A program made the position numbers and the translations under genes. This document shows, in pieces, positions 1 to 64,000 of a DNA stretch of 64,000 nucleotides. The notes beneath the pieces were generated by a model. The model was not told the origin of the DNA. It made no database searches and saw only the letters and a program-made list of their open reading frames with translations. Numbering within the stretch: the stretch's first letter is position 1; each line of letters starts with the position of its first letter. This DNA comes from Calothrix sp. C42_A2020_038. GTDB lineage: Bacteria > Cyanobacteriota > Cyanobacteriia > Cyanobacteriales > Nostocaceae. The stretch is taken from contig JACYLQ010000045.1 in the NCBI GenBank assembly GCA_015272395.1, positions 1-64,000 on the forward strand, in the 5' to 3' direction.

Positions 1-90
1 TTCTTTATTGGGGCAGTCTGTAAGCCTGCCTGGAGGTTCGGGTTATTTGTGTTGCGATCTCAGCACAGATCGCTCAGGGCTACTGAAAAG

Positions 91-110
91 CCCCGCCCTT
101 AAGGGCGGGG
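91..110. repeat. Perfect 20-bp GC-rich palindrome
   Basis: CCCCGCCCTTAAGGGCGGGG is a perfect palindrome with 10-bp arms and no spacer. A one-base-pair variant occurs at 48170-48189. Hairpins of this kind are common at the ends of IS200/IS605-type elements in cyanobacteria. No tnpA or tnpB is recognisable here, so it may be a leftover end or simply a terminator-like hairpin. Confidence 0.5.
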
Positions 111-424
111 GTTAGCTTACTTTACCTATTGGGCTGCTTCGTATCCTGCATCTAAGGTTAAGTATTTGAAAGGCGCCACTGACACTCGAATATGACTATA
201 AGTTACCTAGAAATCCTGATTTTGACGGCAAACACCACTTAGGGTTTACGGTTGACGCGAATTACTTACAGTATTATTTCTCATACATTAGACGAAGTGA
301 AATAAACAAATTGCGAGCGAATAAGGTACTGCATGAGGAGAATCTGGATAACCGTCCTAAATATTGTTCGGGAAACCACCCTTCATGGACAGCCTACACA
401 GGCTCAGTATATATATCAGCATAG
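110..424 (+). pseudogene. Decayed reading frame upstream of dnaK
   Basis: Two adjacent open stretches look like parts of one broken gene. The first runs to a TGA near 191 and includes residues KVKYLKGATDTRI. The second is open from 170 to the TAG at 422-424 (84 codons, no good start) and includes LEYDYKLPRNPDFDG and the C-terminal GNHPSWTAYTGSVYISA. The residue mix is protein-like, rich in Tyr and charged residues, and the frame change lies at about 170-190. I do not recognise the family. It occupies most of the dnaK upstream region, so the dnaK promoter probably lies between 425 and 560. Confidence 0.35.
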
Positions 425-564
425 TTATGGGTTTTTAACCTAAAAAAGCCAAAACTAAAGGTTTAAAGTGCTGAACTGACTGCCTAATCAACTCAGTTGG
501 TTCAAAATTCTCGCCGTATTACGTCCACTTATTAGTTTGTAGTTACACGGAGCCAGCACCTACA

Positions 565-2475
565 ATGGCAAAAGTAGTTGGAATAGACTTAGGAACAACT
601 AATTCCTGCGTGGCAGTCATGGAAGGTGGTAAACCCACGGTTATTGCTAACGCTGAAGGTTTTCGTACCACTCCCTCGGTTGTCGCGTTTGCAAAAAATG
701 GCGACCGCTTGGTTGGTCAAATTGCTAAACGCCAAGCGGTGATGAACCCCGAAAACACTTTTTATTCTGTAAAACGCTTCATCGGGCGTCGCTTCGATGA
801 GGTTACAAATGAAGCTACTGAAGTCTCATATAAAGTTTTACAAAGCGGTGGAAACGTTAAATTAGATTGTCCTGCGGCAGGTAAGCAATTTGCACCTGAA
901 GAAATCAGCGCGCAAGTTCTTCGTAAACTAGTTGAAGATGCTAGTAAATATTTGGGTGAAACAGTTACCCAAGCTGTAATTACAGTACCCGCATATTTTA
1001 ACGACTCACAGCGTCAAGCCACTAAAGACGCAGGTAAAATCGCAGGTATCGAAGTACTACGGATTATTAATGAACCTACAGCCGCATCATTGGCATATGG
1101 TTTTGATAAGAAGAATAACGAAACTATCCTTGTGTTTGACCTTGGTGGTGGTACGTTTGACGTATCCGTTCTTGAGGTAGGTGACGGTGTATTTGAAGTA
1201 CTTGCAACTTCTGGTGATACCCACCTAGGTGGTGACGACTTTGATAAAAAAATCGTTGATTACCTCGCTGAAGAGTTTCGCAAAGCTGAAGGTATTGACC
1301 TACGTAAGGATAGACAAGCACTACAGCGTCTAACCGAAGCAGCAGAAAAGGCAAAAATCGAGCTTTCAAGTGTTACTCAAGCAGAAATAAACCTACCTTT
1401 TATTACTGCTACACAAGATGGTCCAAAGCACCTTGATATGACGCTAACGCGCGCCAGATTTGAGGAACTTTGTTCGGGCTTGATCGACCGTTGCCGTGTT
1501 CCAGTTGAAAATGCACTGCGTGATGCAAAACTCAGCAAGGGCGATATTGATGAGGTTGTATTAGTGGGTGGTTCGACTCGTATCCCCGCCATACAACAAT
1601 TAGTTAAGAATGCATTAGGTAAAGAACCTAACCAAACAGTAAACCCTGATGAAGTAGTAGCTGTTGGTGCTGCAATTCAAGCAGGTGTATTAGCTGGTGA
1701 TGTTACTGGCATATTGTTGTTAGACGTTACACCGTTATCTCTCGGTGTAGAAACCTTGGGTGGTGTAATGACCAAGATTATTCCTCGTAACACCACTATT
1801 CCTACCAAGAAGTCAGAAGTATTCTCCACCGCAGTTGATGGGCAAACAAACGTAGAAATTCACGTCCTCCAAGGTGAGCGTGAAATGTCTAACGACAACA
1901 AGAGTTTGGGAACTTTCCGTCTTGATGGAATTCCTCCTGCACCTCGTGGTGTTCCTCAAATTGAAGTTGTTTTCGATATCGATGCCAACGGTATCTTAAA
2001 TGTAACTGCAAAGGATAAGGGCACAGGTAAGGAACAGTCCATCAGTATTACTGGCGCCTCTACCCTTGACAAATCAGACGTTGAGCGCATGGTACGTGAT
2101 GCAGAGCAAAACGCATCTGCGGATAAAGAACGTCGCGAAAAAATTGACCGCAAGAACCAAGCTGACTCTTTGGCATACCAAGCAGAGAAGCAAATTCAAG
2201 AGCTTGGTGATAAAGTACCCGCAGCTGACAAAACCAAAGTTGAAGGTTTAGTCAAAGAACTCAAGGAAGCTGTTGCAAAAGAAGATGATGAGCAAATTAA
2301 GCGTTTAACTCCCGAATTGCAACAAGCTCTATTTGCAGTTGGTAGTAATATTTACCAACAGCAAGGTGATGCTGGTACAGGTGCCCCAGGACCTGGCGCT
2401 GGCTCTGCTGGTGGCGCCTCTTCTGGTGGTAGTGGCGACGACGTAATCGATGCGGATTTTACTGAATCTAAGTAA
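565..2475 (+). CDS. dnaK: Molecular chaperone DnaK (Hsp70)
   Basis: ATP-dependent Hsp70 chaperone that folds nascent and stress-damaged proteins in the cytosol with DnaJ and GrpE. At 636 aa it has the usual full length. The nucleotide-binding domain (about 1-385) shows the phosphate-1 motif GIDLGTTNS near residue 6, the phosphate-2 motif [12 protein letters not shown] near 191 and the adenosine motif [10 protein letters not shown] near 333. The linker and substrate-binding domain begin around [14 protein letters not shown] (about 389). The Gly-rich tail ends in [12 protein letters not shown], close to the EEVKD-type Hsp70 tail of bacteria. An ACGGAG ribosome-binding site precedes the ATG. Overall it resembles the main cyanobacterial housekeeping form (DnaK2-like); assigning the paralogue number would need a phylogeny. 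No CIRCE-type inverted repeat was seen upstream. A DnaJ-like gene lies 43 kb away, not in an operon. Confidence 0.97.
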
Positions 2476-2488
2476 TTCTATACTTACA

Positions 2489-2550
2489 TTCCCAGGCTCT
2501 ACCTGGGAAGAACCAAAACCCACACTAGCTTAAGTTGGTGTGGTTTTTAT
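2489..2550 (+). terminator. dnaK terminator region (two hairpins)
   Basis: Directly after the dnaK stop, TTCCCAGG pairs with CCTGGGAA (2489-2509). A second stem, AAAACCCACAC with GTGTGGTTTT (2515-2547, one bulge), runs into a T-rich tract. The second has the form of an intrinsic terminator. Confidence 0.65.
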
Positions 2551-2590
2551 TTTTGATTTTGTAAAGTAATTACCTCAAATCAGCATATTT

Positions 2591-2621
2591 AGTACTACTG
2601 GTTGAGTTAACCAGTAGTACT
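2591..2621. repeat. Perfect 13-bp inverted repeat
   Basis: AGTACTACTGGTT (2591-2603) and AACCAGTAGTACT (2609-2621) are perfect complements around the 5-base loop GAGTT. It lies 70 bp upstream of the next gene's start, after the dnaK terminator. It could be an operator or an RNA hairpin. There is no following T-run. Confidence 0.6.
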
Positions 2622-2691
2622 ACCAATCAAAAGCGGTATATATTTGGAGGGTTTACAAGTACAAACTTGGAACTGAATGTAGGAGATAAAA

Positions 2692-3342
2692 ATGGCATAT
2701 CCAATGGCGCCTTGGAATTTGCAGGGTTACGCAGTGCAAACTGTACATTTAATAGATACGAAGCATGTTCGTGGGTTAATTCCTTCTGAGTTTGAAATTT
2801 TTTCAGTTTTTCCTGGTAAAACAGTTGGTGGATTATATGTGTCTAACTATCAAGCTGGTTCAGTACTTGAATATAATGAATTGATTGTTATACCAGGTTT
2901 AGTCAAATATAAAGACAAGATCGGTGGTTGGGTATCACATATATATGTAGATAATCCTGATTCAGTTGCAGGTGGTCGAGAAATTTGGGGATTACCCAAA
3001 GAACTTGCTGATTTTACCTGGCTTGATAAGCGTGTCTTTGTACAACAAGCAGGTAAAACTGTTTTTAGCCTTGATTTTAATAAGCAAAGTTGGATGAATT
3101 GGCGCCTAACTTTGGGATGGTCAAGTTTTAGTACTAAAGAGAGAAATATACTATCTTTCCCATTTGGATTTGAATTCAATTTAGGTTTAATTAGTTCTAA
3201 ACTAGAAGTTCCGCATTCTAGTCCGTTTGCTTCTTTAAATTTAGGAGCGCCACTTTTAACAGCTTGGTGCAAGAATTTAAATTTGCGGGTTGATGCGCCA
3301 CAAATTGTAGGCAACTGTGCGGCTAATTACACTTACAGCTAA
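2692..3342 (+). CDS. Acetoacetate decarboxylase-like protein
   Basis: A 216-aa member of the acetoacetate decarboxylase (ADC) superfamily. The diagnostic stretch GREIWGLPKEL (residues 95-105) contains Glu97 and the lysine (Lys103) that in true ADC forms the Schiff base with the substrate. Many cyanobacterial members have no demonstrated decarboxylase activity, so the substrate is unknown. A strong AGGAGA ribosome-binding site lies 6-8 bases before the ATG. The gene stands alone, converges on the large WD-repeat gene and is separated from dnaK by terminator hairpins. No signal peptide or membrane segment is seen. Confidence is high for the fold, low for the reaction. Confidence 0.8.
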   Translation: MAYPMAPWNLQGYAVQTVHLIDTKHVRGLIPSEFEIFSVFPGKTVGGLYVSNYQAGSVLEYNELIVIPGLVKYKDKIGGWVSHIYVDNPDSVAGGREIWGLPKELADFTWLDKRVFVQQAGKTVFSLDFNKQSWMNWRLTLGWSSFSTKERNILSFPFGFEFNLGLISSKLEVPHSSPFASLNLGAPLLTAWCKNLNLRVDAPQIVGNCAANYTYS

Positions 3343-3402
3343 AATCCTGTCTACGAATGAGAGCGAATGTAACGGATAGGCAAATTTTAAGTTTCAATTA
3401 TT

Positions 3403-6400
3403 TTATCCACAAAGATTTTTATTCTCGTTGTTACCTTCTTGATTATTTTGTAAATAATCACGTACCCAATCACATCCACGTTGAAAGAGTTCTTTACGAC
3501 TTGGAGCTTTCCAATCAATATTTTCAATATTCCAAAGTTTGATTTTACCATCGTCCCCTGTTGATGCTAAGGTTTTACCATCAGGACTAAAGCTAACGCT
3601 GTAATTGGCGCCTAAATCACCTTCAAGAGTTTTGAGTAACACACCCTCACGACTCCATAAGCGCACAGTATAGTCGTCACTAGCAGAAGCAATGATTTTA
3701 CTGTCTGGACTAAAAGCAACACTACGAACTTTGTTATGATGTCCTTCAATAAAAATAGGAAAATTTTCAGTTTGATTTTTGTTTAAATTCCACAAAACGG
3801 CTCGATTGCTATGGCTACCAGCAACAAGCAATTGACCATCAGGACTAAAACTTAATGAAGTAAAACGGTCATTATTTCCTGATAATTTTGAAACTAATTT
3901 ACCACTACGGTTCCAAAAAACAATTTCATTAGCGTTGGTGCTAGCTGCAATTATTTTGTTATCAGGGCTAAAGCTAACATCAGAAAAAGTTTCACTATTA
4001 TCTGCCTTCAATACCTGCGTTAGTATACCTTCACGATTCCAGATTTTTACAGTACCATCCATACTGGCAGACGCAAGTAAACTACTATCACGACTGAAGC
4101 TTGCACCATAGACCCAATTCCCATGTATGAGTGTTTTCAGTAATTTACCATCACGTGTCCATAACCGCACAGTTTTATCTTCACTCGCTGAAGCTATAAC
4201 TTCACCATCTGGACTAAAAGCTACATCTAATATCCAGTCATTATGTCCAGTTAAAGTTTTTAAAAGTTTGCCGTCACGACTCCAGAGTTTAATGGTTTTA
4301 TCTGCACTCGCCGAAGCTAGTACTTGACTGTCTGGCGCCCAAGCTACACTCCATACTAATTCTTTTTGATGTGCTAGAATGGTTTTTTGTAAAATCGGCT
4401 CATATTTCCACAGTTTGGTAGTTTTATCACCCCCTGCGGTAGCCATTATTCGAGCATCAAGACTGAAGCTAATATCATTTAAGTCAGATTTGTGACCCTT
4501 AAAGCTATTAATTAAATTACCATCACGGCTCCACAATTTGAATTTTTTATCATCACTTGCTGTGGCAATCATTAAATTATTTGGGCTAAAAGCAACACTT
4601 TTAATAGTATTAGTATGTGCTTCAATACTGTGCATTAATTTACCATCTTGAGTTCGCCAAAGTTTCATAGTACGGTCGCTTCCACCACCAACTGATGCCA
4701 AAATCTCATTATTAGGACTGAAAGCGATACTGTAAATCCAATCCTTGTGTCCTGTTAGAGTTCTTATTAGTTTGCCACGTGCATCCCAAATTTTTACACT
4801 TTTATCGGTACCACTTGATGCAATCATTTTTCCGTTCGGGCTAAAGTGTACATCTAACACTTTATCTTCGTGCGCTTCCCAACTTTGAAGTAATTGTCCA
4901 TCGATACTCCAAAGTTTAATGGTTCTGTCTTCGTTGGCAGAAGCAATTGTCCCATTCGGACTAAAGCTAAGAGATAAAATCGCTGGTAATTGGGACTTGT
5001 TTTCTTTTAAAACCAGTATTTCTTTACCTTTACGGTTCCAAAGTCTAATTGTACCATCGGCGCCACTTGAGGCAATGATTTGACCATCTGGGCTAAAAGC
5101 AACATCAGTAACAAGCGATGTATGTCCCCAAAGAGTATGAAGTAACTTACCTTTAGTATTCCACAAAATTACTGTATGGTCAGCACTTGCTGTAGCTATA
5201 ATTTGATTATCAATATTAGTATCAGGGCTGAAGCTAACTGCTAAAACTTCATTTTTGTGACCTTGCAAGCGATTCTTTTCTTCAATTCCATAGACAGCTT
5301 GACGTAACAAATCCTCGATTTGCTTTTCAAGAATAGATGGTACTTTCGTCCAGCGTAGTTGGTAAGTTGCTTTTAGACTATTAATCAAACTATCGAAACG
5401 ATTATCTAATAAGAATAATGCTTCTGAAGCAGAATTTAATGCTTCAATATTAGCAATTTCTGCTTGTTTTTTCTGAGAAGCTGTTTGTAGTCCAAAATAT
5501 AATGTACCGACAGTTAAAACACTAACAATAATGCTTGTTGCAATTGCTAAGTTACGTTGACGTTTAAGAGAGCGATTTAGTTTATCTTTAGTACGTCTGA
5601 TTTGTGCTTCAGCATACTTTCGCTGCTCTTTGACTAGCTTACTTTCTTCAATCTCAGTTGCCTGTTGTGATTGGCGAATAAAAGTTACGAGATAGTCATG
5701 CACTAATTGATAAGCATCAGTAGGATCTTGAGGTATTTTTAATACTAAATTTGACCTCACTAAAATTTCTAAAATTATATCTAATTTGACAATTATTTCA
5801 TTGTCAGTATTTTCTAAATCTTTTGCTAATTCTGTCTTTGTTTTCAGCGGACGTAAGCCGTTTTCATCAGTTAGTAAATATAATATAATTCGAGCCGCGC
5901 GTTCATTTTCTAAACCACAATCTTGGATAACCTCTTCTAAAAAACGTTCAACTAGTTTTTCTTTTGGTCCACGTAAGTGATACTGTTCTAAGGTAGTAAT
6001 TTCTTCAGTTTCAAGTTGTGTACCAACTATTTGTAACTCAATTGGACGTATATCATTATGTTCACGAGCTAAATCTTTTAATAGTTCATCGATTAATGGT
6101 TCTTCTAAGGATAAGTGTGTTTTATTATTTAAACTTTGTAAAAATAATTTAGCATGTATTTTAGTCAAGTTACCTAAATAATAAAGAATTTTGTTATCAA
6201 GAATATTATTACTAATTACATCAAAATTAATCAGACGATTATTACATTCTAGTAAATAGTGTAAATAATCTTCTCGTAATGACAAAATAACTTTAATATA
6301 TGGTATATGTAAACAATCGCGAAGAAACTTATAAAAAATATAACGTGTACGCGAATCTTGATTAATGACAAAAAATTCTTCTAATTGGTCAAAGATTAAA

Positions 6401-8412
6401 ACAATTAGAAGGTTATGCTCAACACATATTTTAAGATGGTCAAGAATCGACTTCATACCGTGGTTGTCTCCAACCAAAAAATAATGATTAGATTCTTTGA
6501 GTTTAATTTGTGAAGGTCGTTCGATGTGTATTTCTCCAGCAATAAATGAAATTCCCGCTTGTTCAATATGTGGTTGTGAAGGAGATAGTTCACAAGCCCA
6601 ATTACCTGTATCATTAAGCGCAGTATATAATCTTTTACTAAACTCCCCCATCCAGTCAGTATAAACTTGTAATAATACAGGTACAACATCGCGTGTTCCA
6701 ATTGGTTTTTGTTTTAATGCAGGAATCAAACCTGCTTGTAAAATCGAACTTTTACCAACACCCGACTGCCCGTGAATTACCGTCAACTTATAATCATGTC
6801 GTCCCATGCGCTTGCGAAGATTTTCAATATCTTGCTGTCTACCTGATTCAGTAATTTCGGGGGCAATACTTCCTTTGTGTTCTACTTTAACCAAACCAGG
6901 ATTAGCAATTTGTTGCTTTGGTTGTAGTCTACCAGCACCAATAAACGCGCGAAAAGCATACTGCTGCTGAATTGAACGTTGTAGCTGTTTAATTGAAAAA
7001 GCTGTCAGATATTCACCTAATTGAAAGTAGCTATCGTGTAACTTGCCCAAAATTGAAATATACAGCTGTGGGTCATACTGAGGTTTAGTATCAACACGAG
7101 CAGTTTCAAAGATAGTAATTGCATCTTCGACTTCACCCAGTGCTAACAGCGACCGACCTAATGCATACAAATACCAACCTTGATGGTATGACATTTCCCA
7201 GTCTAAATCCGCTTTGAGTTCAGCAGAAGTTGATGATGCATTAGAAATTGCTTGTTTAGCATGATTCAAAATCTCTAAAGCTGTTTTTGCAGCTTGCTGT
7301 GCAGGTATGAACTGATACTTTGCTAAATACACCTCTGCAAAAAAACCGTATACGCGAGCCAGTTTAAACTCATCTGCATATTGTAAATGTAAACTTAATG
7401 CTCTTTGTGCCAAAGTTTCCAACTCATTCCAATATTCAAGACGCTGTAGCACCCCGCCTAAAGCATTGATAAAATTTGCTACTAAATCTAAGCGATTGGC
7501 TTGTTCAAAAGATTGAATACATTGCTGGAAATAGCTTTTAGCCTTTTCACAAGCTTGCTTATACTCGGAACGGTGTAGCATAGCATATGTTCGCCACCAT
7601 AATCCTAGGCAATACAGTAAACAACCTTGACGGATTAACAATTTTGAATCTTCTATTTCATGGGGGTTTTCTGCTTGTTTTTGCAAAAGTATTAAGCTAT
7701 GTTCATAATACTGGCGTGATTGTTCCATCGAAGCATGTACGTCAAGACCGAGAACAAATTGTAAACAAGCTTCGATTTCGGGGTCTAAGTTAACGCAGCG
7801 TTTTTGTAACTCTTGCCAAGCAAACTCTAACTCATGCCGCCTTGAGGAACCAACTTGTAAATTGAATGTGGTGTTATCAATAAAGCGACCAGAACCAGCG
7901 TCGAGGACTTTTGCAAATACTTCCGCAGCAGTAGTTTGAATTAGTTCGATTAAGCTGCTAGTTGAAAGGGTGAATTCAACAGTAATTGACCAACTATATA
8001 AGTCGGGAGCCTCACGCATGAAGTTTTGCAGTACTTTGTCTGTAACCCAAAATACTACAGGGAAGTGAAAGTTTTTTCTAAACTCTTCGCGTACTTGGTT
8101 TGCAGCATAAAGCATTTGTTTGATTGCAGTCACTGATTCCAAACCATATACAAATACAGTTGGAAAATTGTTAATTTTTGGTTTTGCACCAAGCAAATTA
8201 AAAATGCTTAGATACAGCTTTCTGGTCGAAGGTTCAAGAACTACTTCGTAAAATTCGACCAAATGCGATTCTTTCAGTTCTTGAACTAATTGCCGACGTA
8301 AACTAACAGCATTACAACGCGCTAAAATCAGGGAGAATTCGCCACGAGACATTGAAATAGCCCAAGCTAGTTCTTCCAACGAATCTTGATTATTAATATC
8401 GAGATTATGCAT
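3403..8412 (-). CDS. TPR / STAND-type NTPase / 14-WD40-repeat membrane protein
   Basis: A 1669-aa multidomain protein. Residues 1-150 form an uncharacterised domain (AWAISMSRGEFSLILARCN, later HFPVVFWVTDKVLQNF) seen at the front of many large cyanobacterial signalling proteins. TPR-like helical repeats follow (about 200-480). The NTPase (about 525-830) has Walker A GQSGVGKS at 548-555 and a Walker B-like LIVLIFDQLEE with Asp675, as in novel STAND (nSTAND1-type) ATPases. A predicted membrane segment (about 954-974, LAIATSIIVSVLTVGTLYFG) is followed by 14 WD40 repeats (about 1040-1640), enough for two seven-bladed propellers. STAND proteins are ligand-triggered switches in which the repeat domain senses and the NTPase oligomerises. 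Here the effector would be the N-terminal domain. The upstream ATPase gene is on the same strand, 264 bp away. Ligand and output are unknown. Confidence 0.9.
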   Translation of the reverse strand: MHNLDINNQDSLEELAWAISMSRGEFSLILARCNAVSLRRQLVQELKESHLVEFYEVVLEPSTRKLYLSIFNLLGAKPKINNFPTVFVYGLESVTAIKQMLYAANQVREEFRKNFHFPVVFWVTDKVLQNFMREAPDLYSWSITVEFTLSTSSLIELIQTTAAEVFAKVLDAGSGRFIDNTTFNLQVGSSRRHELEFAWQELQKRCVNLDPEIEACLQFVLGLDVHASMEQSRQYYEHSLILLQKQAENPHEIEDSKLLIRQGCLLYCLGLWWRTYAMLHRSEYKQACEKAKSYFQQCIQSFEQANRLDLVANFINALGGVLQRLEYWNELETLAQRALSLHLQYADEFKLARVYGFFAEVYLAKYQFIPAQQAAKTALEILNHAKQAISNASSTSAELKADLDWEMSYHQGWYLYALGRSLLALGEVEDAITIFETARVDTKPQYDPQLYISILGKLHDSYFQLGEYLTAFSIKQLQRSIQQQYAFRAFIGAGRLQPKQQIANPGLVKVEHKGSIAPEITESGRQQDIENLRKRMGRHDYKLTVIHGQSGVGKSSILQAGLIPALKQKPIGTRDVVPVLLQVYTDWMGEFSKRLYTALNDTGNWACELSPSQPHIEQAGISFIAGEIHIERPSQIKLKESNHYFLVGDNHGMKSILDHLKICVEHNLLIVLIFDQLEEFFVINQDSRTRYIFYKFLRDCLHIPYIKVILSLREDYLHYLLECNNRLINFDVISNNILDNKILYYLGNLTKIHAKLFLQSLNNKTHLSLEEPLIDELLKDLAREHNDIRPIELQIVGTQLETEEITTLEQYHLRGPKEKLVERFLEEVIQDCGLENERAARIILYLLTDENGLRPLKTKTELAKDLENTDNEIIVKLDIILEILVRSNLVLKIPQDPTDAYQLVHDYLVTFIRQSQQATEIEESKLVKEQRKYAEAQIRRTKDKLNRSLKRQRNLAIATSIIVSVLTVGTLYFGLQTASQKKQAEIANIEALNSASEALFLLDNRFDSLINSLKATYQLRWTKVPSILEKQIEDLLRQAVYGIEEKNRLQGHKNEVLAVSFSPDTNIDNQIIATASADHTVILWNTKGKLLHTLWGHTSLVTDVAFSPDGQIIASSGADGTIRLWNRKGKEILVLKENKSQLPAILSLSFSPNGTIASANEDRTIKLWSIDGQLLQSWEAHEDKVLDVHFSPNGKMIASSGTDKSVKIWDARGKLIRTLTGHKDWIYSIAFSPNNEILASVGGGSDRTMKLWRTQDGKLMHSIEAHTNTIKSVAFSPNNLMIATASDDKKFKLWSRDGNLINSFKGHKSDLNDISFSLDARIMATAGGDKTTKLWKYEPILQKTILAHQKELVWSVAWAPDSQVLASASADKTIKLWSRDGKLLKTLTGHNDWILDVAFSPDGEVIASASEDKTVRLWTRDGKLLKTLIHGNWVYGASFSRDSSLLASASMDGTVKIWNREGILTQVLKADNSETFSDVSFSPDNKIIAASTNANEIVFWNRSGKLVSKLSGNNDRFTSLSFSPDGQLLVAGSHSNRAVLWNLNKNQTENFPIFIEGHHNKVRSVAFSPDSKIIASASDDYTVRLWSREGVLLKTLEGDLGANYSVSFSPDGKTLASTGDDGKIKLWNIENIDWKAPSRKELFQRGCDWVRDYLQNNQEGNNENKNLCG

Positions 8413-8676
8413 ATTTAACGTGCTGAGTTAGAAGTACTAATTAGAAATATATATTTGAAATGTGTATATAAAGTGCTGAGTGTAAAGTTGAATATACTTT
8501 GTACTCAGCAATGTTAGAGAATGTTTTTGATCCACCATTATCCTCCTTAATAAGGGAGACTTTGATTTGAATTCCCCCTTTAGGAGGGGTAGTCGGAGAT
8601 CAACGAGTATCTAAAATCACAGCAAACCACTTTTGAAACAACCTCTTAGGTATACGACAGTCGCAGGAACTCTCTA

Positions 8677-53971: not shown

Positions 53972-54032
53972 TTACAAGTAATTATCCAATACCATACCCA
54001 GTTAATTATGGTGGCATCACCCCCGTTCGGGA

Positions 54033-54164: not shown

Positions 54165-54237
54165 CAGTATCCCAGTCAGGAAAGGGAAATATATATTTTC
54201 CCCTTCCTTTTAGGAAAGGGGGTTAGGGGAATAGGTT

Positions 54238-54795: not shown

Positions 54796-54836
54796 ATCTA
54801 ATAAAAATATAGGAAATGAGTATTATTTAGAGACTA

Positions 54837-55661: not shown

Positions 55662-55666
55662 AGCTA

Positions 55667-56476: not shown

Positions 56477-56563
56477 AAACTTCATCCCATCAGGTGATGT
56501 ACATATAACTTAATAGTTATACTTTCAAAATATCTAAGGTTTTCTAAATTTTGGGGGTAAAGT

Positions 56564-56953: not shown

Positions 56954-56959
56954 TGACTA

Positions 56960-58417
56960 TTAAGTTTGTATCTCCTTGACTAATTCATAAAAAGGTTCCC
57001 AGTTATTTTCCTGTGCAATTGCTTCCCAAACTGATTCAATCACAGGACGAAGTATGACAGTTTTTGGGTTGCTGCGAGCCAGAGTTTGGGCAACTTTGTC
57101 AATTTCGTCAGGTGCCAGGTTTGTCAAAATGTGATGATATAATCCTGACCAATGCAAAAATAAATCGGAGGCGCCTAAAGATTGGGCAATTTCCGAGCCA
57201 TGTAAAATAGAACTAGCGTCATCACGCCATTTGGGTGAGAAAGTAGTAGCGAGGTCAGCAAAGAAATGATGGTAGCTAATTGGATAAGTGTTGAGAAATT
57301 GTAGTGTAGCTTTTAACACTTCTTCTCCTTGCTCTGATTCCAAATTTTCAAATCCCAACTTTTGAAGCATTAACCTACGGTATTCAGAATGGTAAAAATC
57401 TTCAAATTTAGATAGTCCTGTTTCCATATCACTTGGTTGAATTGCTGCTAACAGTGGTTTCTGCAACAATTCTAGATTGAGCTTGCAAATACCAGGTTGG
57501 TTCCCATAACTGTATCTTCCGTAATAATCAAAGTAAGCAGCAGTAAATTGAGGATCAAATCTAGGAATAAATGCGTAGGGACCATAGTCAAAACTTTCAC
57601 CAGTTATTGACATATTATCAGTATTTAAAACAGCATGACAAAAACCAGTAGCCATCCACTGCGCGACAAGCGTAGCAACTCTTTGCACTAATTCACCATA
57701 AAATAAAGCGTACTTATCTTTTTCTGAACTACCATCTGAAGTCAAATGTGAATAATAGGTATCAATAACGTGGTTTAATAGTTTTTTGATTAAATCTGGA
57801 CGCTGAATAAAGCTTAACCTTTCAAAAGTTCCAAAACGAATGTGTGATTTGCTAAAGCGTACCATCACCGAAGATCGAGTTGGTGATGGTTCATCACCAC
57901 GCCACAAATCTAAACCTGTTTCAATCATACTCAAACAGCGCGATGTCGTAACACCCATTCTGTGTAACATCTCTGCTGCTAGTACTTCACGTACCCCTCC
58001 TTTGAGAGTTAACATTCCATCACCACCGCGCGAGTAAGGTGTTCTTCCTGAACCTTTTGTGCCAAAATCGTATAGCGTACCATCAGTTGCCCGTACTTGA
58101 GCGTACAGAAAACCTCTACCATCGCCCAATTGCGGGTTGTACTCGCCAAATTGATATCCGTGATACCGCAATGCTAGTAATGGTTTACATATCTCAAATT
58201 TTCCAAAAGCTTCGATAAAATGTTCGTTACTTACATTTGCTGCATCTAAACCTAAGCGCATCAGCAGTGCATCATTACGCCATCTTAAAGTATATTGGGG
58301 AAATTCAGCGGCTTCTACTTCGTCATAGTAATCATCACCCAGCGCTAAGATGGCAGGTTCATAGTTAAGGGAAACGAATGGGTTATCAAAGGTTTTACTA
58401 GTATCAGGCAAAGTCAT
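56960..58417 (-). CDS. Protein adenylyltransferase SelO (YdiU/UPF0061)
   Basis: A pseudokinase-fold enzyme that transfers AMP to Ser/Thr/Tyr of proteins and is linked to redox stress in E. coli. It is 485 aa. Conserved SelO features: [40 protein letters not shown] (flipped ATP site), [14 protein letters not shown], the catalytic Asp in [16 protein letters not shown] and [20 protein letters not shown]. No selenocysteine-like C-terminal motif is seen, as in many bacterial SelO. Convergent with the preceding small secreted protein gene (6 bp between stops). Confidence 0.93.
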
Positions 58418-58642
58418 TACGAGTACGGGAAATATGATTTATGTTTTAATCCTACCGAAGAAAGTCGATAGTTGACCAAACAAGTTTTTAGTGGTAGAGA
58501 TAAATAATTTTAGATTGTTGCATCTAAAATTAAAGTCACATAAACAAGTAACATAAACTGGTTGGATTAAGCATTATTGAATGTTGTTGAAATACTGTTG
58601 AAACATTTTTGAAATATTTTAGTCAAAAACCAAACCAAGAAT

Positions 58643-59302
58643 ATGAGTGATAATATACAGGAATTAAAAAATAAACTTAGTCGATTGGCGATTTTGGATA
58701 AAAATTTTGAAGTGTTTGGTTCGGAATCGCACCAGTATAAATTAAATCCTTGCTTAAGCGAAATCGAAATTCAGGAATTAGAAGCAAAGTATAAGATCAG
58801 ACTACCGTTTGAGTTTCGTGAGTTCTTATTAAAAGTGGGTAATGGTGGAGTTGGTCCAGGTTATGGATTGATAGGTATAGATCGTGTAGAACTATCCAAG
58901 ATCGAATTAACAGGGTTAGACTTTTTGTCTTTACCATTTCCTCTCCATCAAGAGTGGAATGATTTAGATTTACTTCAGAACAGTAATGGAAATTCTCCAG
59001 ATGCTTACTACGATGCCAATTTGGTTCAGGGTAGTCTTCTGGTTGCTGAATATGGATGTGGAATTGAGGCTCGGTTAGTAATTACTGGCGAACAATCTGG
59101 TAAGATTTGGATTGATGACCGTGTAGGGGAAGGTGGTATATATCCTTTAACTAATCATTGTGCAGCTTTCTTTCATGATGATCCAGATATAGAAGATAAT
59201 TTATATGAATCGGTAGAAGAAGTTAAAGAAGCATTGACTTTTTATGAGTGGTATGATAACTGGTTAAATCGTAGTATTAGTCAGGTTGTACAACTCGGAT
59301 AA
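58643..59302 (+). CDS. SUKH (SMI1/KNR4) family protein
   Basis: A 219-aa SMI1/KNR4-type SUKH-superfamily protein. Residues about 30-130 match the fold: LSEIEIQELEAKYKIRLP, FEFREFLLKVGNGGVGPGYG, LIGIDR. SUKH proteins are often immunity proteins next to polymorphic toxins in bacteria, and regulators in fungi. No toxin gene is adjacent. The flanks are a GNAT acetyltransferase (convergent) and SelO. It may be an orphan immunity protein acquired by transfer. No GGCGCC was found in it. Confidence 0.8.
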   Translation: MSDNIQELKNKLSRLAILDKNFEVFGSESHQYKLNPCLSEIEIQELEAKYKIRLPFEFREFLLKVGNGGVGPGYGLIGIDRVELSKIELTGLDFLSLPFPLHQEWNDLDLLQNSNGNSPDAYYDANLVQGSLLVAEYGCGIEARLVITGEQSGKIWIDDRVGEGGIYPLTNHCAAFFHDDPDIEDNLYESVEEVKEALTFYEWYDNWLNRSISQVVQLG

Positions 59303-59311
59303 AAGTTTGGA

Positions 59312-59884
59312 CTAAAAATTAGATTTCCAATTCGGGTTAATAAGGCTAGTCAAGATATGGTCTTCCCATTTACCGTTAATCATTAAGTAATCTCTAGCAT
59401 ATCCTTCGACATTAAATCCTAGACGCTTGAGTAATTTGCTACTACGCTGATTGTGGGGGATATAGTTGGCCATAATGCGGTGCATATTGAGTTCTGTAAA
59501 CATGTATTTAATTGCATGTTGCATTGCTTCAGTCATATAACCTTTACCTTGTTCGCTTTCGGCCAAGCTATATCCGACATTACAGTAGTGTGCGGCGCCT
59601 CGAACAAAATTGCTGAAGTTGAGAGTACCAATAATTTTATTTGGGTCAGTTTTAGGAAAGACGAATAGTCTTAAGGAACGGTCATGGAGAAATTCCTGGC
59701 AATTGACTTCGATTTGCAATTCCCAATATGCTGGAGTAAAGAAATTGTCGTGCCATTGAGGGTAATAGGGAGTTAGATAAGCCTTGTTCTGTGTGAAGTA
59801 ATTTAGGATTTTAGGTATATCCTCATTAGTTGCCATGCGGATGATAACGCGCGTACAGACAATGAATGGCATTTCCGAGGGCAT
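59312..59884 (-). CDS. GNAT acetyltransferase (RimJ/RimL-like)
   Basis: From the ATG at 59884 (MPSEMPFIVCTRVIIR) it is 190 aa. A further Met 4 codons on is also possible. The 18 upstream in-frame codons are hydrophobic and unlikely to be part of the protein. The RimJ/RimL subfamily pattern is clear: VIIRMATNEDIPKILNYF, the acetyl-CoA loop ESEQGKGYMTEAMQHAIKY, and NQRSSKLLKRLGFNVEGYAR. Such enzymes acetylate N-termini of ribosomal proteins or small amines; the substrate is not predictable. The PrmA gene lies upstream on the same strand (2 bp before this region's start of the longer frame), so they may form an operon. Confidence 0.85.
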   Translation of the reverse strand: MPSEMPFIVCTRVIIRMATNEDIPKILNYFTQNKAYLTPYYPQWHDNFFTPAYWELQIEVNCQEFLHDRSLRLFVFPKTDPNKIIGTLNFSNFVRGAAHYCNVGYSLAESEQGKGYMTEAMQHAIKYMFTELNMHRIMANYIPHNQRSSKLLKRLGFNVEGYARDYLMINGKWEDHILTSLINPNWKSNF

Positions 59885-59939
59885 AAACGACTTGAGTAAA
59901 GAGTTTATTATGTTGATTATATATATGATAGATGCCAAT

Positions 59940-60890
59940 TTAGACTAATCGATGAGCGAGTGCGACCCATTCGTTGCATCGTTGACAATCTATCACTTGA
60001 AACCCTTCTGCTTGAAAAGCTTTTATTACAGATACTTCATAGTCTTGATCGTAACCTGATGTTATTAGTATGCCACTATATGTGTTCTTGCTGGATAAAG
60101 CTTGTTGATAATCTGGCGCAAGGGTAGTGTGTATTCGCCCTAAGATATTTGCAACAATCAAATCAAAACTGTTGTTTGGTAAAATATTCGTAACCTTACC
60201 AATATTGTTACCACCCATCCAATTACCCATTTTACTACCGCGTCCTAAGCTTGCTTGCATCACCTCTACCTGATGTGTGACTGCGTTGCGTGTAACCGCA
60301 TCTTGAGTTGATTTAACTGCAATGATATCATTATCTACAGCGAGGACATTGGCGCCAAGTTTTGCTGCTGCCACACTCAGAATACCAGAACCACAGCCAA
60401 GGTCAAGAACATTCATATCTTTGATTAGATAACGTTCGAGCAGTTTAATTGCTAGGACTGTTGCTGGATGTAAACCGCTACCAAATGCCAAACTTGTTTT
60501 TAGTTCAATAATTATTTCGTCTGATTTTGGTAAGTAAGAGCAATTTGGAGAAAGCACAACAAACTTCTCCCCTATTTTAATAGGTTCGTTTGAAGTATGT
60601 AATTGATGGGATTTTTTTGGAACTATATATGCTTCAACTGTACTTGTTAGACGAGTTCGATATAAAGGTGAGAGTAAATCTTCAATTTCTGTGATGCGTG
60701 TACTTGCCTGGATATCATTAGGTAAATAAAAATTAATCGTGTGAATCCAATTATTGTGACTTGCGCTGTGATCAAGGTGTATAGATTTATTAACGGTAAC
60801 ATCGCTTGTGTATTCACAACCAGCCAGTAGTGTGCAGACCCAATCAACCGCTTCAGAGGTAGTATTTAAAGTTAATTCTATCCAGGACAT
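59940..60890 (-). CDS. prmA: Ribosomal protein L11 methyltransferase
   Basis: SAM-dependent enzyme that trimethylates ribosomal protein L11. It is 316 aa. The SAM-binding motif I VLDLGCGSGILSVAAAKLG, the acidic motif VLAVDNDIIAVKSTQDAV and motif IV FDLIVANILGRIHTTLA are the PrmA hallmarks. The N-terminal recognition domain is slightly longer than in E. coli, with IVPKKSHQLH, and there is a Gly/Asn-rich insertion (GRGSKMGNWMGGNNIGKV) just before motif IV. It is co-directional with the GNAT gene downstream. Confidence 0.92.
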   Translation of the reverse strand: MSWIELTLNTTSEAVDWVCTLLAGCEYTSDVTVNKSIHLDHSASHNNWIHTINFYLPNDIQASTRITEIEDLLSPLYRTRLTSTVEAYIVPKKSHQLHTSNEPIKIGEKFVVLSPNCSYLPKSDEIIIELKTSLAFGSGLHPATVLAIKLLERYLIKDMNVLDLGCGSGILSVAAAKLGANVLAVDNDIIAVKSTQDAVTRNAVTHQVEVMQASLGRGSKMGNWMGGNNIGKVTNILPNNSFDLIVANILGRIHTTLAPDYQQALSSKNTYSGILITSGYDQDYEVSVIKAFQAEGFQVIDCQRCNEWVALAHRLV

Positions 60891-61009
60891 AACTCTTGAT
60901 TTTTACCGAGCTTCTATAATTATCGGGCGTCGATATGCTCTAATTGAAGTGTTTTAAGTTAAAATTAGATACCTTCAGCTAAATACAGCTGCAATTAATC
61001 TGCCTGCTT

Positions 61010-61489
61010 ATGGTTCAGTATACTCTAGCTCAAAGCCCAGATATTATCCTCAGTGTTTCAGGTAAGGATTCAGCCAAAGCCCGTGAAAAAGCAATGGACC
61101 AGTTAATGGAACTGATGGACTCGGGCAAATTACCTACCGAACTCGAAGAAGGATTCAGTCCTCAACAACTAATAGAAGTGAAAGAAGCAAGCATTGATGC
61201 TGCTGGTGATGAGGATGCTATTACACAAGCAGTTCAACTTCTCAGTAACCTGGCCACACTCAAGTTAAAAGTACAAGACTCGCGCGCAGAAGCTTTAGAA
61301 ATTCGTAAAGCTCTTGATATTCTTTTCACCGACCAATCAGTCAGTGAGGAAGAAATTTCTCGTCTCAAAGAAGGGTTTAAAGTTCTCAAAAACTTTGCCC
61401 AAGCTAATCTTCGCTATCAAGAAGCGCGCACAAAGGCAGAAGGCGCCCGTCAAGTTCTTGATAAAGCGTTAAAGTCTCCGGATAAGTAG
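61010..61489 (+). CDS. Small helical protein (paralogue of 40358-40741)
   Basis: A 159-aa protein. The N-terminal half (LAQSPDIILSVSGKDSAKAR, EKAMDQLMELMDSGKLPTEL) predicts mixed structure. The C-terminal half is helical (LKLKVQDSRAEALEIRKALD, LKEGFKVLKNFAQANLRYQE, GARQVLDKAL) and aligns with the C-terminal part of the 127-aa protein at 40358-40741. ATG start with TGCTT upstream only; no clear ribosome-binding site. Probably a conserved cyanobacterial family. No known domain. Confidence 0.7.
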   Translation: MVQYTLAQSPDIILSVSGKDSAKAREKAMDQLMELMDSGKLPTELEEGFSPQQLIEVKEASIDAAGDEDAITQAVQLLSNLATLKLKVQDSRAEALEIRKALDILFTDQSVSEEEISRLKEGFKVLKNFAQANLRYQEARTKAEGARQVLDKALKSPDK

Positions 61490-61575
61490 AGACGCTCCGG
61501 TTCCTCGCGTTTGTACGGAGTTCGGAATTAGAACTCCGCGCCTCCGCGCCTCTGCGCCTCCAAACTCTTCATTCT

Positions 61576-63798
61576 TCACTTTTTCCGGTTTTTAGGAATG
61601 ATTGACGAAGCGCTTGTTTCCTGAATTTCTTCAACTTCGATGCGTTCTGCACTCATTCTCTGCCTGTAGTATTGCTGGTAGTAGCTGTAAGAAGCATGTG
61701 CTGCTTCCTTCGATTTATTCGCTACAAAGCCTAAAACCGGAGTGCCAGAAACTTGTAGCTCTTCCAAGGCTTGTTGGAACACAGTACGCTTGAGTTTACC
61801 CAATCCTGCAACTAGTACCATACCATTTGTGTTGGCGGCTAGTAGATTGGCATCAGCAAAACCAACAACAGGAGGAGTATCGTAAATTACTAAATCAAAA
61901 CTGCTTTGCAGGTCATTCATTAAATCCTGCATTTTCTGTGAAGCAAGTAAGCGCACAGAATCAGGTGGAATTGGTCCAGCGTTGAGGACATACAAGTTGT
62001 CTTCGATGGGAGAACGCTCGATAACATTACTCCAGTCTAAGTCAGAGGCGATGATATCGGTTAGTCCTTGAATATTCATTAGTCCAACTCGTTTATGCAG
62101 TGTTGGACAGCGTAAATTAGCATCGACAAGTAAGACTCGATGTCCCATTGCTGCAGCCGATAAAGCAAGGTATAAAGCTACAGTTGACTTACCATCGTTG
62201 GGTGTTGCAGAACTAATTACAAGTGAACGAATTGGTGTATCTGAACCCAGTAAGAGAATGTTTGTATAAAGCGAGCGGAAGACTTCAAAGAAAGCAGCAA
62301 TATCTGGCTTTTGAGCTTGACCACTGTCTTGCAGAGAAACTGCTAATTCTTTCCGCAATGGGATTGTTCCCAAAAGTGGTAAGTATGTAGCGTCTTTGAT
62401 ATCTTTAGTAGTGTAAAAGACATTACTAAGTTTATCAATAACAAGGGCTGCACCGGAACCGAGAATTAGACCAAGCATTCCTCCAATTAGCAAGTTACGC
62501 TTTGTACTATCAGCCATAGCTGCCGGTTTTTTGACTTCGGTAAGCTCGGGGTCTAGTAACTTCCACGGCTGTAGTTTTTGGGCTTTTTCTATCTCCAAAG
62601 CCTGTTGTTTAGAGATGAATTGTCCATAATTGTCGGTTGCGATCTTTAGCTGTTGCTGAATATAGTCATAATCACGATTAACAGTTGCTAAAGTTCTCAA
62701 TTCCTCGTTAGCTTTGTCAATCTTGTCTGCTAAAGATAAGTCGCGCGCGACTAGTTCACTGATGCGACTTTCAAATTCACGCTGGACTCGTGATTCTTCT
62801 GCTTGTAGCATTGGTAGCAGATTATTTTTTCTTTCCTGTAGAGTAATTATGGTTGGGTTTTCAGAGGTATATTTTGCAGATTCCTTCTTGAGCAGAACAT
62901 CTGCTTCTTGAATTTGGTCTAAGACTTTCTGGTAGCGAAGACTTTCGCTCAAAATTGAGTTACCTGCGCGTTCAACAGGCTGTTGTGACAATTCGCGTTT
63001 TAATTCATTGTATTTAGAAACCATTTGTTCATACTGTACTCGCGTTTCCATACGCTGCTGCGTTAGATTCGCAATCAAAGTAGAAACTTGTTGTGATTTC
63101 TGAGATGGATCGACTAAATTATTCTTTTGGCGCAAGGTACGTAGCTTTTCTTGCCAATCATCAACTCGTTGTCTTATTCGCCCTTGACTAATTCTTTCTT
63201 TAACAAACTTGATTGCTTCATTAATGTCTTCTTGACGTTCAGCCAAACTATAGTCTAAGTACGCATTAGACAGAGCTAGTAACACATCCCTAACCTGCTC
63301 CTGATCTTCGTTAATATATTTAACTGTTAATATGTTCGGTATATTTTCTTTGGGAGGCGTTATTTCCAAATCGCCTTGTAGTTTGTTATACGTTAACTCT
63401 GGATATTTTTTTCTGAGATTTTGAACTACTGGTGTTAGTAAGCGAGGGCTTTGCAAAACCTTTATCGTTGTGTTAACGTTTCCAGTCTCAGGCGCCGAAA
63501 TTGCATTTTGGGCGCCAATAGTCTGTGGAACGTTAGCAACAGCCTTTGATTCACCAGTTACTGGTTTAGTTAGAATTTCAAACTGACCTTTGAAAACTGG
63601 GGGGTCAGTTTCTGCTTTGAGAACGGCACCAGCGGTGACAACACCAGTGAATCCAGCAATTAATAATGCTCGACGGCGTAGTACCACTCCAACTTGACCC
63701 AGATTTAATCCACCTTCATCAGTATCATTTAACTGGGCAGCATTAGCTTGTATCTGCAATTGAGAATACTTTTCTGACTTCAGCATAGCGTTCGTCAA
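61576..63798 (-). CDS. Wzc-like polysaccharide biosynthesis tyrosine autokinase
   Basis: A 740-aa bacterial tyrosine (BY) kinase that controls chain length and export of extracellular polysaccharide. Residues about 30-480 are the Wzz/GNVR periplasmic domain between two membrane segments (ALLIAGFTGVVTAGAVL; LLIGGMLGLILGSGAALVI), with long coiled coils. The cytosolic kinase has Walker A SSATPNDGKSTVALYLA, Walker A' VLLVDANLRCPTLH and Walker B FDLVIYDTPPV. The tail holds a tyrosine cluster, SYSYYQQYYRQR, the autophosphorylation sites. No wza, wzy or glycosyltransferase genes follow in the window, but upstream DNA lies past its end. The start ATG gives MTNAMLKSEKYSQ. Confidence 0.93.
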   Translation of the reverse strand: MTNAMLKSEKYSQLQIQANAAQLNDTDEGGLNLGQVGVVLRRRALLIAGFTGVVTAGAVLKAETDPPVFKGQFEILTKPVTGESKAVANVPQTIGAQNAISAPETGNVNTTIKVLQSPRLLTPVVQNLRKKYPELTYNKLQGDLEITPPKENIPNILTVKYINEDQEQVRDVLLALSNAYLDYSLAERQEDINEAIKFVKERISQGRIRQRVDDWQEKLRTLRQKNNLVDPSQKSQQVSTLIANLTQQRMETRVQYEQMVSKYNELKRELSQQPVERAGNSILSESLRYQKVLDQIQEADVLLKKESAKYTSENPTIITLQERKNNLLPMLQAEESRVQREFESRISELVARDLSLADKIDKANEELRTLATVNRDYDYIQQQLKIATDNYGQFISKQQALEIEKAQKLQPWKLLDPELTEVKKPAAMADSTKRNLLIGGMLGLILGSGAALVIDKLSNVFYTTKDIKDATYLPLLGTIPLRKELAVSLQDSGQAQKPDIAAFFEVFRSLYTNILLLGSDTPIRSLVISSATPNDGKSTVALYLALSAAAMGHRVLLVDANLRCPTLHKRVGLMNIQGLTDIIASDLDWSNVIERSPIEDNLYVLNAGPIPPDSVRLLASQKMQDLMNDLQSSFDLVIYDTPPVVGFADANLLAANTNGMVLVAGLGKLKRTVFQQALEELQVSGTPVLGFVANKSKEAAHASYSYYQQYYRQRMSAERIEVEEIQETSASSIIPKNRKK

Positions 63799-64000
63799 TA
63801 TTACTATTAGTGTTTCTTGGGTTATTACACACTCAATGTGAGTTTTCGGCAGGCTTGGCGATGCATCCAGATAAATGACTGACTAATTATGTTATGTGCG
63901 CGATCTCTTCTAAATTAAAAGGTTCATCCAAGAATTATTACCAGGTACTTAGTCTCAACAGTAGGTATCAAAATACCTTAGTAAAATTTTGGCAATGCAC

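Follow-up and report, generated by a model that had tools for sequence, protein, structure and literature searches.

It has long been asked why a palindrome recurs roughly once per kilobase in cyanobacterial genomes, and the window studied here (the whole stretch of DNA analysed, 64,000 nt) raises it for the hexamer GGCGCC. The window holds 72 such sites against 3.8 expected from base composition and 5.1 and 4.4 under first- and second-order Markov models, which makes GGCGCC its top over-represented palindromic hexamer; the maximal-order expectation of 35 tells nothing, since the sub-words behind it come from GGCGCC itself. A preliminary description of this DNA had put the sites at about 70 against about 4 expected and proposed that GGCGCC has replaced HIP1 (GCGATCGC) as the dominant palindrome. 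The count was close, and the replacement holds for the window, the genome and the genus.

Abundance and distribution of GGCGCC

The whole genome lies far from Markov expectation, with 7475 GGCGCC sites in 6.53 Mb (1.14/kb) and, in a 464-kb genome sample, 539 against 29.1 expected (second-order). HIP1 is reduced to 147 copies in the same 6.53 Mb (10 against 3.8 expected in the 464-kb sample); the median for 209 other genomes of the family is 0.80/kb. The one copy in the window, earlier placed near 36614, was found at 36615, and HIP1 proved not to be enriched elsewhere in the genome, which does not show the over-representation of GCGATCGC that defines HIP1. The preliminary description also called CGCGCG and GCGCGC frequent; CGCGCG is a real second excess (34 against 7.6), and GCGCGC is only weakly in excess (17 against 10.5). 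GRCGYC forms that are rare in the window genome include GACGTC (3 against 27) and GGCGTC (6 against 28, one strand).

Genes and spacers alike carry the sites, as had been described: open reading frames wholly contain 64 of the 72 (56.8 expected from their coverage), in frames 36/18/10, and the other 8 are not wholly inside one. A preference for particular flanking bases had also been raised, and some is present, since G is disfavoured at −1 (0.12), but it is not strong; with flanks this weak, GGCGCC was rejected as a piece of a longer repeat. Spacing is near random (CV 1.03 against 0.99 ± 0.05), which rejects a regular arrangement, and gaps shorter than 50 bases are scarce (0.022 against 0.056). 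Conversion of HIP1 to GGCGCC in place was likewise rejected: none of four Nostoc calcicola (L019) HIP1 sites aligned to the window has become GGCGCC, the same four window stretches are covered by Desmonostoc (L018), and the result is 0/2 in each of two further genomes (L017 and L034).

Table 1 Palindromes and possible inner-C change products in the window
Feature	Number	Position	Strand
GGCGCC sites (first base; span 172..63516)	72	172, 2053, 2413, 2706, 3101, 3607, 4334, 5059, 8699, 9682, 10812, 11584, 12262, 13156, 13406, 13757, 13885, 14605, 15508, 15659, 15870, 16038, 18023, 18276, 18801, 18894, 18969, 19455, 19560, 19635, 22453, 22978, 23818, 24187, 24417, 25125, 26429, 27936, 28641, 29008, 30208, 30999, 31039, 34122, 36428, 37448, 43347, 44323, 44488, 44611, 45031, 46615, 48332, 49078, 49918, 50025, 51670, 52413, 52781, 52813, 53384, 53807, 53889, 55405, 56090, 56429, 57170, 59594, 60351, 61442, 63491, 63511	both (palindromic)
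HIP1 (GCGATCGC), sole copy	1	36615..36622	
CGCGCG, second, weaker over-represented palindrome	34	1448..62749	
GGTGCC, what C-to-T at the GGCGCC inner C would leave (span with GGCACC 2380..63630)	7	2380, 12835, 17251, 45754, 48313, 53432, 57111	
GGCACC, likewise what such a change would leave (some copies of either hexamer may have another origin)	7	12663, 16152, 18197, 19854, 42947, 45544, 63625	

All seven genomes of the genus, a branch of filamentous cyanobacteria, carry GGCGCC at 1.14–1.71/kb and HIP1 at 0.004–0.023/kb; in the other 210 family genomes GGCGCC reaches at most 0.11/kb. The swap itself is already known, having been first reported in 2015, when Calothrix PCC 7103 and D253 were described as having GGCGCC for their alternate highly iterated palindrome (HIP) (Elhai 2015, PMC4390886). 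The window genome shares with that case the hexamer, the loss of HIP1, a strong depletion of GATC and GrCGyC-type methyltransferases. PCC 7103 (G061) belongs to the same genus but to a different species, 82.4% identical where aligned and with 11.6 rather than 6.5 Mb. An alternate HIP in the sense of that paper is a short GC-rich palindrome hugely over-represented genome-wide where HIP1 is low, as observed here, with a methyltransferase able to modify it, for which the genus has a candidate, and with sites methylated in the cell. We judge it fairly likely that GGCGCC is the alternate HIP of one Calothrix-type genus. It matches HIP1 of most cyanobacteria in a density of about one site per kilobase and in its tie to methyltransferases (PMC4390886), and differs from it in sequence. 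What is new is that GGCGCC is shared genus-wide and that individual sites are retained, neither of which appears in the portion of the 2015 description cited here.

Another family of the same order offers a partial parallel. One of its genomes, G284 (3.8 Mb), contains 9489 GGCGCC and 74 HIP1 and encodes a HindV-type methyltransferase (53% identical), and three genus mates have 304–343 GGCGCC and no full-length homologue. In a 61-kb sample of G284, GGCGCC stands at 123 against 50.7 expected; AGCGCC is in greater excess (273 against 59.9), CGGCGCCG is the foremost octamer, and neither GGCGTC nor GACGTC is depleted. This hints that the swap happened twice, although the parallel is only partial and the favoured motif broader. 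Small samples of other genomes considered as a possible second GGCGCC lineage gave no clear excess: G420 (8 against 6.7 in 26 kb; genome total 2493), G318 (4 against 10.7), G477 (8 against 4.2), G551 (38 against 56.6) and G262 (8 against 5.4 in 10 kb). The high raw count of L070 corresponds to 11 against 5.8 expected.

Conservation and loss of individual sites

The GGCGCC sites are old. Calothrix HK-06 (81.5% identity) has 13 of the 15 window sites that align to it, and a second comparison at about 82% identity shares 15 of 17; other all-GC hexamers are shared at only 24/61 and 23/53 in the same two comparisons.

Across four relatives, in one 200-kb region, losses of GGCGCC are suppressed about threefold by all routes except C-to-T at the inner C (C3>T). 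Coding sites show 35 losses other than C3>T against 113 expected, and 64 C3>T losses against 47. At codon positions 1–2, C3>T occurs 18 times against 5.0 expected; pooled, it is barely above C>T at GCG outside the motif (26/1152 against about 0.019). Third codon positions show 10 G1>A changes against 34 expected and one G2>A against 12.7. C3>T losses per strain at 144 four-way sites (G060, 1; G061, 9; G064, 10; G065, 6) are too few to argue from. The C3>T product GGTGCC is enriched, and the other one-step neighbours of GGCGCC are rarer than in HIP1-type relatives. Counted over sites with at least three aligned strains and leaving out 36 mixed sites, losses exceed gains by 75 to 9, so the rise of GGCGCC itself was not observed; one-step gains number 4 against 1.3 expected. 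The outgroup G063 aligns at 16 of the losses and carries GGCGCC at just 11 of them, so polarity is imperfect.

Candidate methyltransferase and partner nuclease

HIP1-type motifs had been tied to methylation and repair in the preliminary description, which suggested looking for a cognate orphan methyltransferase, and a good candidate is present. A HindV/BsaHI-type (GRCGYC) m5C methyltransferase is conserved as an orthologue in 7/7 genus genomes, shows the homology, m5C motifs and recognition loop of its type (the loop being as in nuclease-paired enzymes), and has dN/dS of 0.05–0.17 over 21 pairs. Its gene neighbours are alike in six of the seven genomes. In the remaining one, G062, contig ends break up the copy at this locus, and an N-terminal piece adjoins the same neighbour at a contig end; contig C60 has a copy 80% identical, with none of the shared neighbours found in its 1.5-kb flanks. 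The enzyme is 56% identical to the product of a gene annotated hindVM adjoining hindVRP, and its DNA-contact loop is nearly identical to those of family enzymes, mostly nuclease-paired, in a comparison whose output has no E. coli HindV row. The window genome has one HindV-type copy and PCC 7103 two; HindV-type matches number one in G060 and two or more in G061, G064 and G065. In a tree of these enzymes the six core orthologues group at 100/100, the G062 row being a tandem paralogue that was disregarded. Two other m5C methyltransferase clusters are present in 7/7 and 6/7 genus genomes.

The base that M.BsaHI methylates is the central C of its target GRCGYC (PMC2413257). The likeness in family and contact loop predicts that the enzyme reads GRCGYC in this genus, and by homology GGCGCC sites would be methylated at the inner C, a putative link to methylation and repair. 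The GRCGYC assignment of the predicted enzyme rests on family, loop and avoidance statistics, and the inner-C change spectrum bears on methylation in the cell only indirectly.

Known HindV/BsaHI systems differ from the situation here in having a nuclease and in shunning GGCGCC, which is enriched in this genus. A HindVP-type nuclease occurs in 39 of 217 family genomes, at most 300 bp from the methyltransferase in 36 of the 39. The same type was found in 0/7 genus genomes (HindVRP query from an E. coli plasmid, E 1e-10), and no nuclease gene stands among the methyltransferase neighbours read in G000 and G060; the genus thus shows no nuclease-beside-methyltransferase pair of the HindV/BsaHI restriction-modification type.

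Avoidance was compared in a count table of 216 of the 217 family genomes (G108, 72% complete, left out), grouped into 38 with both genes, 18 with the methyltransferase alone, 1 with the nuclease alone, 152 with neither and the 7 of the genus. Partial or broken matches were scored as present, and rates use rounded genome sizes except for G000. Outside the genus, genomes with both genes carry 0.70 GGCGCC/Mb against 5.03 in those with neither (p 2.3e-6), and 0.83 GACGTC/Mb against 6.12 (p 7.2e-10); the control CCGCGG shows a difference too (p 0.0055), and part of the contrast therefore reflects shared ancestry. An earlier split outside the genus by methyltransferase copy alone (intact 46, broken or partial 10, none 153) gave lower GGCGCC (p 0.0014) and GACGTC (p 7.1e-7) with intact copies, with CCGCGG also lower (p 4.2e-5) and CTGCAG not (p 0.16); the grouping that adds the nuclease is the better test. 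The 18 genomes with a methyltransferase (some broken) and no nuclease found have no GGCGCC excess, and therefore the methyltransferase is not sufficient.

Origin and maintenance of the sites

On balance we consider it likely that, once HIP1 had been lost, a target formerly avoided became the palindrome that the genome methylates, through a restriction-modification methyltransferase left as an orphan. We infer the sequence of steps, and the force that maintains the sites, as follows. The ancestor probably had a HindV/BsaHI-type (GRCGYC) system, a type still common in the family, and like present bearers would have shunned GGCGCC. The methyltransferase would then have persisted as an orphan in a lineage that has no detectable nuclease of this kind and has lost HIP1, while GGCGCC rose to about one site per kilobase. 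The enzyme would mark the inner C of each site; a motif-specific force, either selection acting on the methylated mark or a repair process coupled to that mark, would hold the sites, which would leak away mainly by C-to-T at that base. GGCGCC, then, probably owes its mark to a relic of a former defence system. A more ambitious version, which we advance only tentatively, is that domestication turned the system into an epigenetic mark spanning the genome, with selection and not only repair bias guarding thousands of individual GGCGCC sites at synonymous positions as methylation erodes the inner C.

The most serious competitor, to which we give a distinctly smaller chance, is Elhai's ratchet: sites would arise and persist only as mismatch repair directed by methylated GC pushes GrCGyC near-misses to GGCGCC, up to about one per kilobase, with no selected function. 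Such a density is what is seen, the one-step neighbours other than GGTGCC are scarce as if consumed, one-step gains exceed expectation, and the motif-specific suppression of losses does not extend to C3>T, a change that deamination outside replication could produce. A running ratchet should nevertheless refill the sites, and gains are few beside losses; Elhai also held such HIPs to be sporadic rather than clade-wide (PMC4390886), whereas this one is present in 7/7 genomes of a genus in which sites are shared. It is improbable that the HindV-type gene has no part in GGCGCC and that the motif depends on some other methyltransferase or on none. Further m5C methyltransferases are indeed conserved in the genus, and their plasmid relatives bear no target-telling name, yet four lines of evidence (enzyme family, contact loop, avoidance statistics and the inner-C spectrum) converge on GRCGYC and a HindV-type enzyme.

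The remaining explanations fare worse. Dense, dispersed, conserved sites would suit a DNA-uptake or recombination signal unrelated to methylation, but uptake sequences are typically longer and not palindromic, and a palindrome with weak flanks and near-random spacing is a poor match; the C3>T spectrum would also go unexplained, and we regard this reading as very improbable. Two others are scarcely credible and were rejected. Very-short-patch (Vsr) repair of T:G mismatches would change GGTGCC into GGCGCC, but PF03852 was found in 0/7 genus genomes by a search that matches 5/14 control genomes, and GGTGCC is enriched rather than depleted. A codon or amino-acid bias (Gly-Ala, GGC GCC) would fit the commonest frame, which takes 36 of the 64 coding sites in the window and 125 of 243 in the PCC 7103 region; GGCGCC nonetheless occurs in all three frames and in spacers, and its G1>A and G2>A losses at codon position 3 are suppressed.

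Elhai argued that alternate HIPs may lack any function and be by-products, appearing sporadically and not in clades (PMC4390886). A genus with an ancestral alternate HIP, kept site by site even synonymously and accompanied by an apparent orphan methyltransferase, is a natural experiment on that question. If the tentative domestication reading is true, HIPs in general would have a selected function, one that can be passed from one methyltransferase to another.

GGCGCC in the window, the genome and the genus

The window holds 72 copies of GGCGCC in 64,000 bases (39.5% GC) and one copy of GCGATCGC (HIP1). Base composition predicts 3.8 GGCGCC, and Markov models predict 5.1 (first order) and 4.4 (second order); the figure of 35 at maximal order is circular. 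The preliminary description had claimed about 70 against about 4 and a single HIP1, and was accurate on both. Of the 72 sites, 64 lie entirely within ORFs, where all three frames are used. Spacing is near random, and the flanking preference that we looked for is weak. The whole genome (6.53 Mb, 50 contigs) carries 7475 GGCGCC (1.14 per kb), 147 HIP1 and two copies of the reversed hexamer CCGCGG, and a 464-kb sample of it contains 539 GGCGCC against 29.1 expected and 10 HIP1 against 3.8. Neither a GGCGCC count near its genome-wide Markov expectation nor HIP1 enrichment elsewhere in the genome, the two outcomes named beforehand as counting against the claim, was found. The excess is real and genome-wide, and in kind it is already described: according to the available part of Elhai 2015 (PMC4390886), GGCGCC replaces HIP1 in Calothrix PCC 7103 and D253, to which the window genome adds one more case. 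Our literature search found GGCGCC as a highly iterated palindrome (HIP) in no other paper among the matches listed.

A window protein read as a glucose-1-phosphate adenylyltransferase type is 92–93% identical to its counterparts in Calothrix HK-06 NIES-2101, Dulcicalothrix desertica PCC 7102 and Calothrix PCC 7103, its nearest named relatives, with the next at 88%. In 21-kb loci of HK-06 and PCC 7102, GGCGCC reaches 2.45 and 1.88 per kb and HIP1 is absent. Across 217 family genomes, GGCGCC density is 1.14–1.71 per kb in all seven of the genus and at most 0.11 in the other 210, making this alternate HIP a clade character, whereas the available part of Elhai 2015 (PMC4390886) presents exceptional HIPs as sporadic and not in clades. 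HIP1 density is 0.004–0.023 per kb in the genus and has a median of 0.80 elsewhere in the family (209 genomes); outside the genus it falls below 0.05 only in G182 (0.009), with G194 at 0.05. A 21,290-base locus of Scytonematopsis contorta HA4267-MV1 has one HIP1, two GATC, one GGCGCC and no strong replacement palindrome; this genome is possibly between HIPs.

A HindV-type methyltransferase and the search for a partner nuclease

Searching for a cognate methyltransferase, as had been proposed, yielded a HindV-type candidate METHYLTRANSFERASE: one m5C cluster of the genus has a 313–331-residue protein in all seven genomes, 80–90% identical to that of the window genome. This core gene lies between RuBisCO-like and SLH-type genes (our reading of the ORFs) in six of the seven; in the remaining genome, G062, an N-terminal piece adjoins the RuBisCO-like gene where a contig ends, and an intact 80% copy lies elsewhere. 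Its dN/dS is 0.05–0.17 (21 pairs). Extra copies, ~60% identical and some broken, occur in PCC 7103, NIES-4105, PCC 7716, G062 and G064. The genus enzyme shares 56% identity with the product of a gene that adjoins hindVRP on an E. coli plasmid and is annotated as a HindV methylase. In the available parts of the sources, the putative HindVP system is homologous to BsaHI (GRCGYC) and the central C is the base methylated by M.BsaHI (PMC2413257), methylated motifs of H. influenzae Rd include GRCGYC (PMC8565308), and PCC 7103 carries two GrCGyC methyltransferases (PMC4390886).

The DNA-contact loop is almost identical between the genus enzymes and those of 23 family loci examined (L187–L209). A HindVP-type nuclease, in some copies broken, is present in 39 of the 217 family genomes, and in 36 of them it lies no more than 300 bp from the methyltransferase; the same search of the genus found it in none of seven. 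We then compared 209 of the 210 genomes outside the genus (G108 left out). Median GGCGCC and GACGTC are 0.70 and 0.83 per Mb with both genes (38 genomes), 5.45 and 6.44 with the methyltransferase alone (18), and 5.03 and 6.12 with neither (152); both genes versus neither gives p 2.3e-6 for GGCGCC and 7.2e-10 for GACGTC. The control CTGCAG shows no difference in this comparison (p 0.56). The control CCGCGG does differ (p 0.0055), so shared ancestry contributes to the contrast. The evidence that the methyltransferase and nuclease pair reads GRCGYC is good, not conclusive.

Other methyltransferases and defence-like genes were also seen, the latter in a PADLOC scan covering five window proteins. 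A 658-residue m5C methyltransferase is clustered in five of the seven genus genomes, with a small ORF directly after the gene; that of genus genome G060 has no NCBIfam match. A further m5C methyltransferase shares 88% identity with a plasmid gene of Calothrix PCC 6303, and its flanks (L011, L012) hold no GGCGCC and one HIP1; this region looks recently acquired.

Coordinates of features in the window and in two genus genomes
Feature	Location	Positions	Strand	Remark
Kinase-like protein matching PD-T4-6	window	28046-29785	-	E 4.7e-110
ATPase matching PADLOC HEC-01A	window	34508-35596	+	E 1.2e-150
Longest GGCGCC-free stretch	window	37454-43346		5.9 kb; mean gap ~0.9 kb; chance could suffice
Glucose-1-phosphate adenylyltransferase type	window	46366-47655		
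m5C methyltransferase flanked by L011, L012	G000:C13	around 19358-20500		
Locus L151, holding the 658-residue m5C methyltransferase	G000:C38	444000-458000		long C-terminal extension
Locus L150, holding the 658-residue m5C methyltransferase	G060:C4	438000-450000		long C-terminal extension

Age and turnover of the sites

GGCGCC sites are old and kept. Between the window and HK-06 (81.5% identity), 13 of 15 aligned window sites are common, whereas for all other all-GC hexamers the figure is 24 of 61; in a second region (L249 versus PCC 7103, 82.4%), the figures are 15/17 and 23/53. The same window sites give 11/14 with PCC 7102 and 12/14 with PCC 7103, results not independent of that with HK-06. 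The relatives hold 13–14 sites (window comparisons) and 4 (L249) without a counterpart in the window genome. In four HIP1-type relatives (L017, L018, L019, L034), aligned GGCGCC is shared at 0/1, 0/4, 0/4 and 0/1.

We aligned a 200-kb region of PCC 7103 with G060, G064 and PCC 7716 (93–94% identity, near-equidistant). In this alignment 181 sites are conserved, 75 have been lost, 9 have been gained and 36 are mixed. Among the sites where the outgroup NIES-4105 aligned, it carries GGCGCC in 11 of the 16 counted as losses, in neither of the 2 gains and in 32 of the 36 conserved. Since losses now exceed gains, most of the build-up preceded the split of these four strains. A C-to-T change at the inner C (C3>T) accounts for 47 of 65 one-step losses; one-step gains number 4 against 1.3 expected. 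With coding expectations drawn from rates outside the motif at the same codon position and trinucleotide, C3>T occurs 64 times against 47 (codon positions 1–2: 18 against 5.0) and other coding losses 35 times against 113; the flanking bases change about as often as the average base. Pooled over the four strains, C3>T barely exceeds C>T in GCG outside the motif. GGTGCC stands at 27.6, 29.0 and 21.0 per 100 kb in three genus samples versus 13.5 in HIP1-type relatives, and the other eight one-step neighbours are rarer in each sample than in those slightly GC-richer relatives. Two forces are visible: C-to-T change is frequent at the inner C, the base that the enzyme would be expected to methylate, and a brake specific to the motif holds back other changes, even synonymous ones.

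CGCGCG is a second over-represented palindrome (34 against 7.6 expected in the window, with sites between 1448 and 62749; 237 against 53.1 in the 464-kb sample), at ~2x expectation in samples of G060, PCC 7103, G064 and PCC 7716. The frequency first noticed for CGCGCG and GCGCGC holds for the former and to a smaller extent for the latter (132 against 71.9 in the same sample). In the four-strain alignment, CGCGCG was lost 14 times where 23.1 were expected and gained 13 times where 6.1 were expected; unlike GGCGCC, it may still be forming. GATC (461 against 1386) and GGCC (142 against 507) are depleted in the sample; GATC is likewise depleted in PCC 7103, at 16% of expectation in the available part of Elhai 2015 (PMC4390886). 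Many other palindromes are near-absent in the 464-kb sample: TTCGAA 1 against 164, GTGCAC 0 against 65, GTCGAC 0 against 39, CGTACG 0 against 40, TGCGCA 9 against 135 and ACGCGT 1 against 62. Several restriction systems, past or present, are likely.

A possible route from restriction system to HIP

A partial second case is G284, from another family of the order. Its HindV-type methyltransferase is 53% identical, and its 3.8 Mb hold 9489 GGCGCC and 74 HIP1 (3110 and 3424 HIP1 in genus mates G281 and G295), possibly an independent HIP swap. The favoured motif is broader, with CGGCGCCG and AGCGCC in excess (L250–L253, L270). Its methyltransferase adjoins ORFs that we read as Dps- and NUDIX-like. 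Genus mate G230 has few HIP1 (134) and only 343 GGCGCC, and a search there for a HindV-type enzyme gave no match.

In the best-fitting order, an ancestor with a GRCGYC restriction-modification system would have lost the nuclease and then HIP1, after which GGCGCC would have climbed to ~1 per kb. Its upkeep may come from selection on the methylated mark or from repair tied to that mark, and species-level data fit both; in the model of Elhai 2015, as its available part gives it, methylated-GC-directed repair generates such sites and function is not needed (PMC4390886). The methyltransferase alone is insufficient, because 18 family genomes have it (in some broken), with the nuclease not found, and lack a GGCGCC excess. 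In none of the 18 does HIP1 fall below 0.33 per kb, in line with Elhai's idea, in that available part, that low HIP1 is also needed. New relative to the earlier account are the clade-wide spread, the probable descent from a restriction-modification system that was orphaned, and the signature, seen at the level of sites, of change at the inner C and of constraint.
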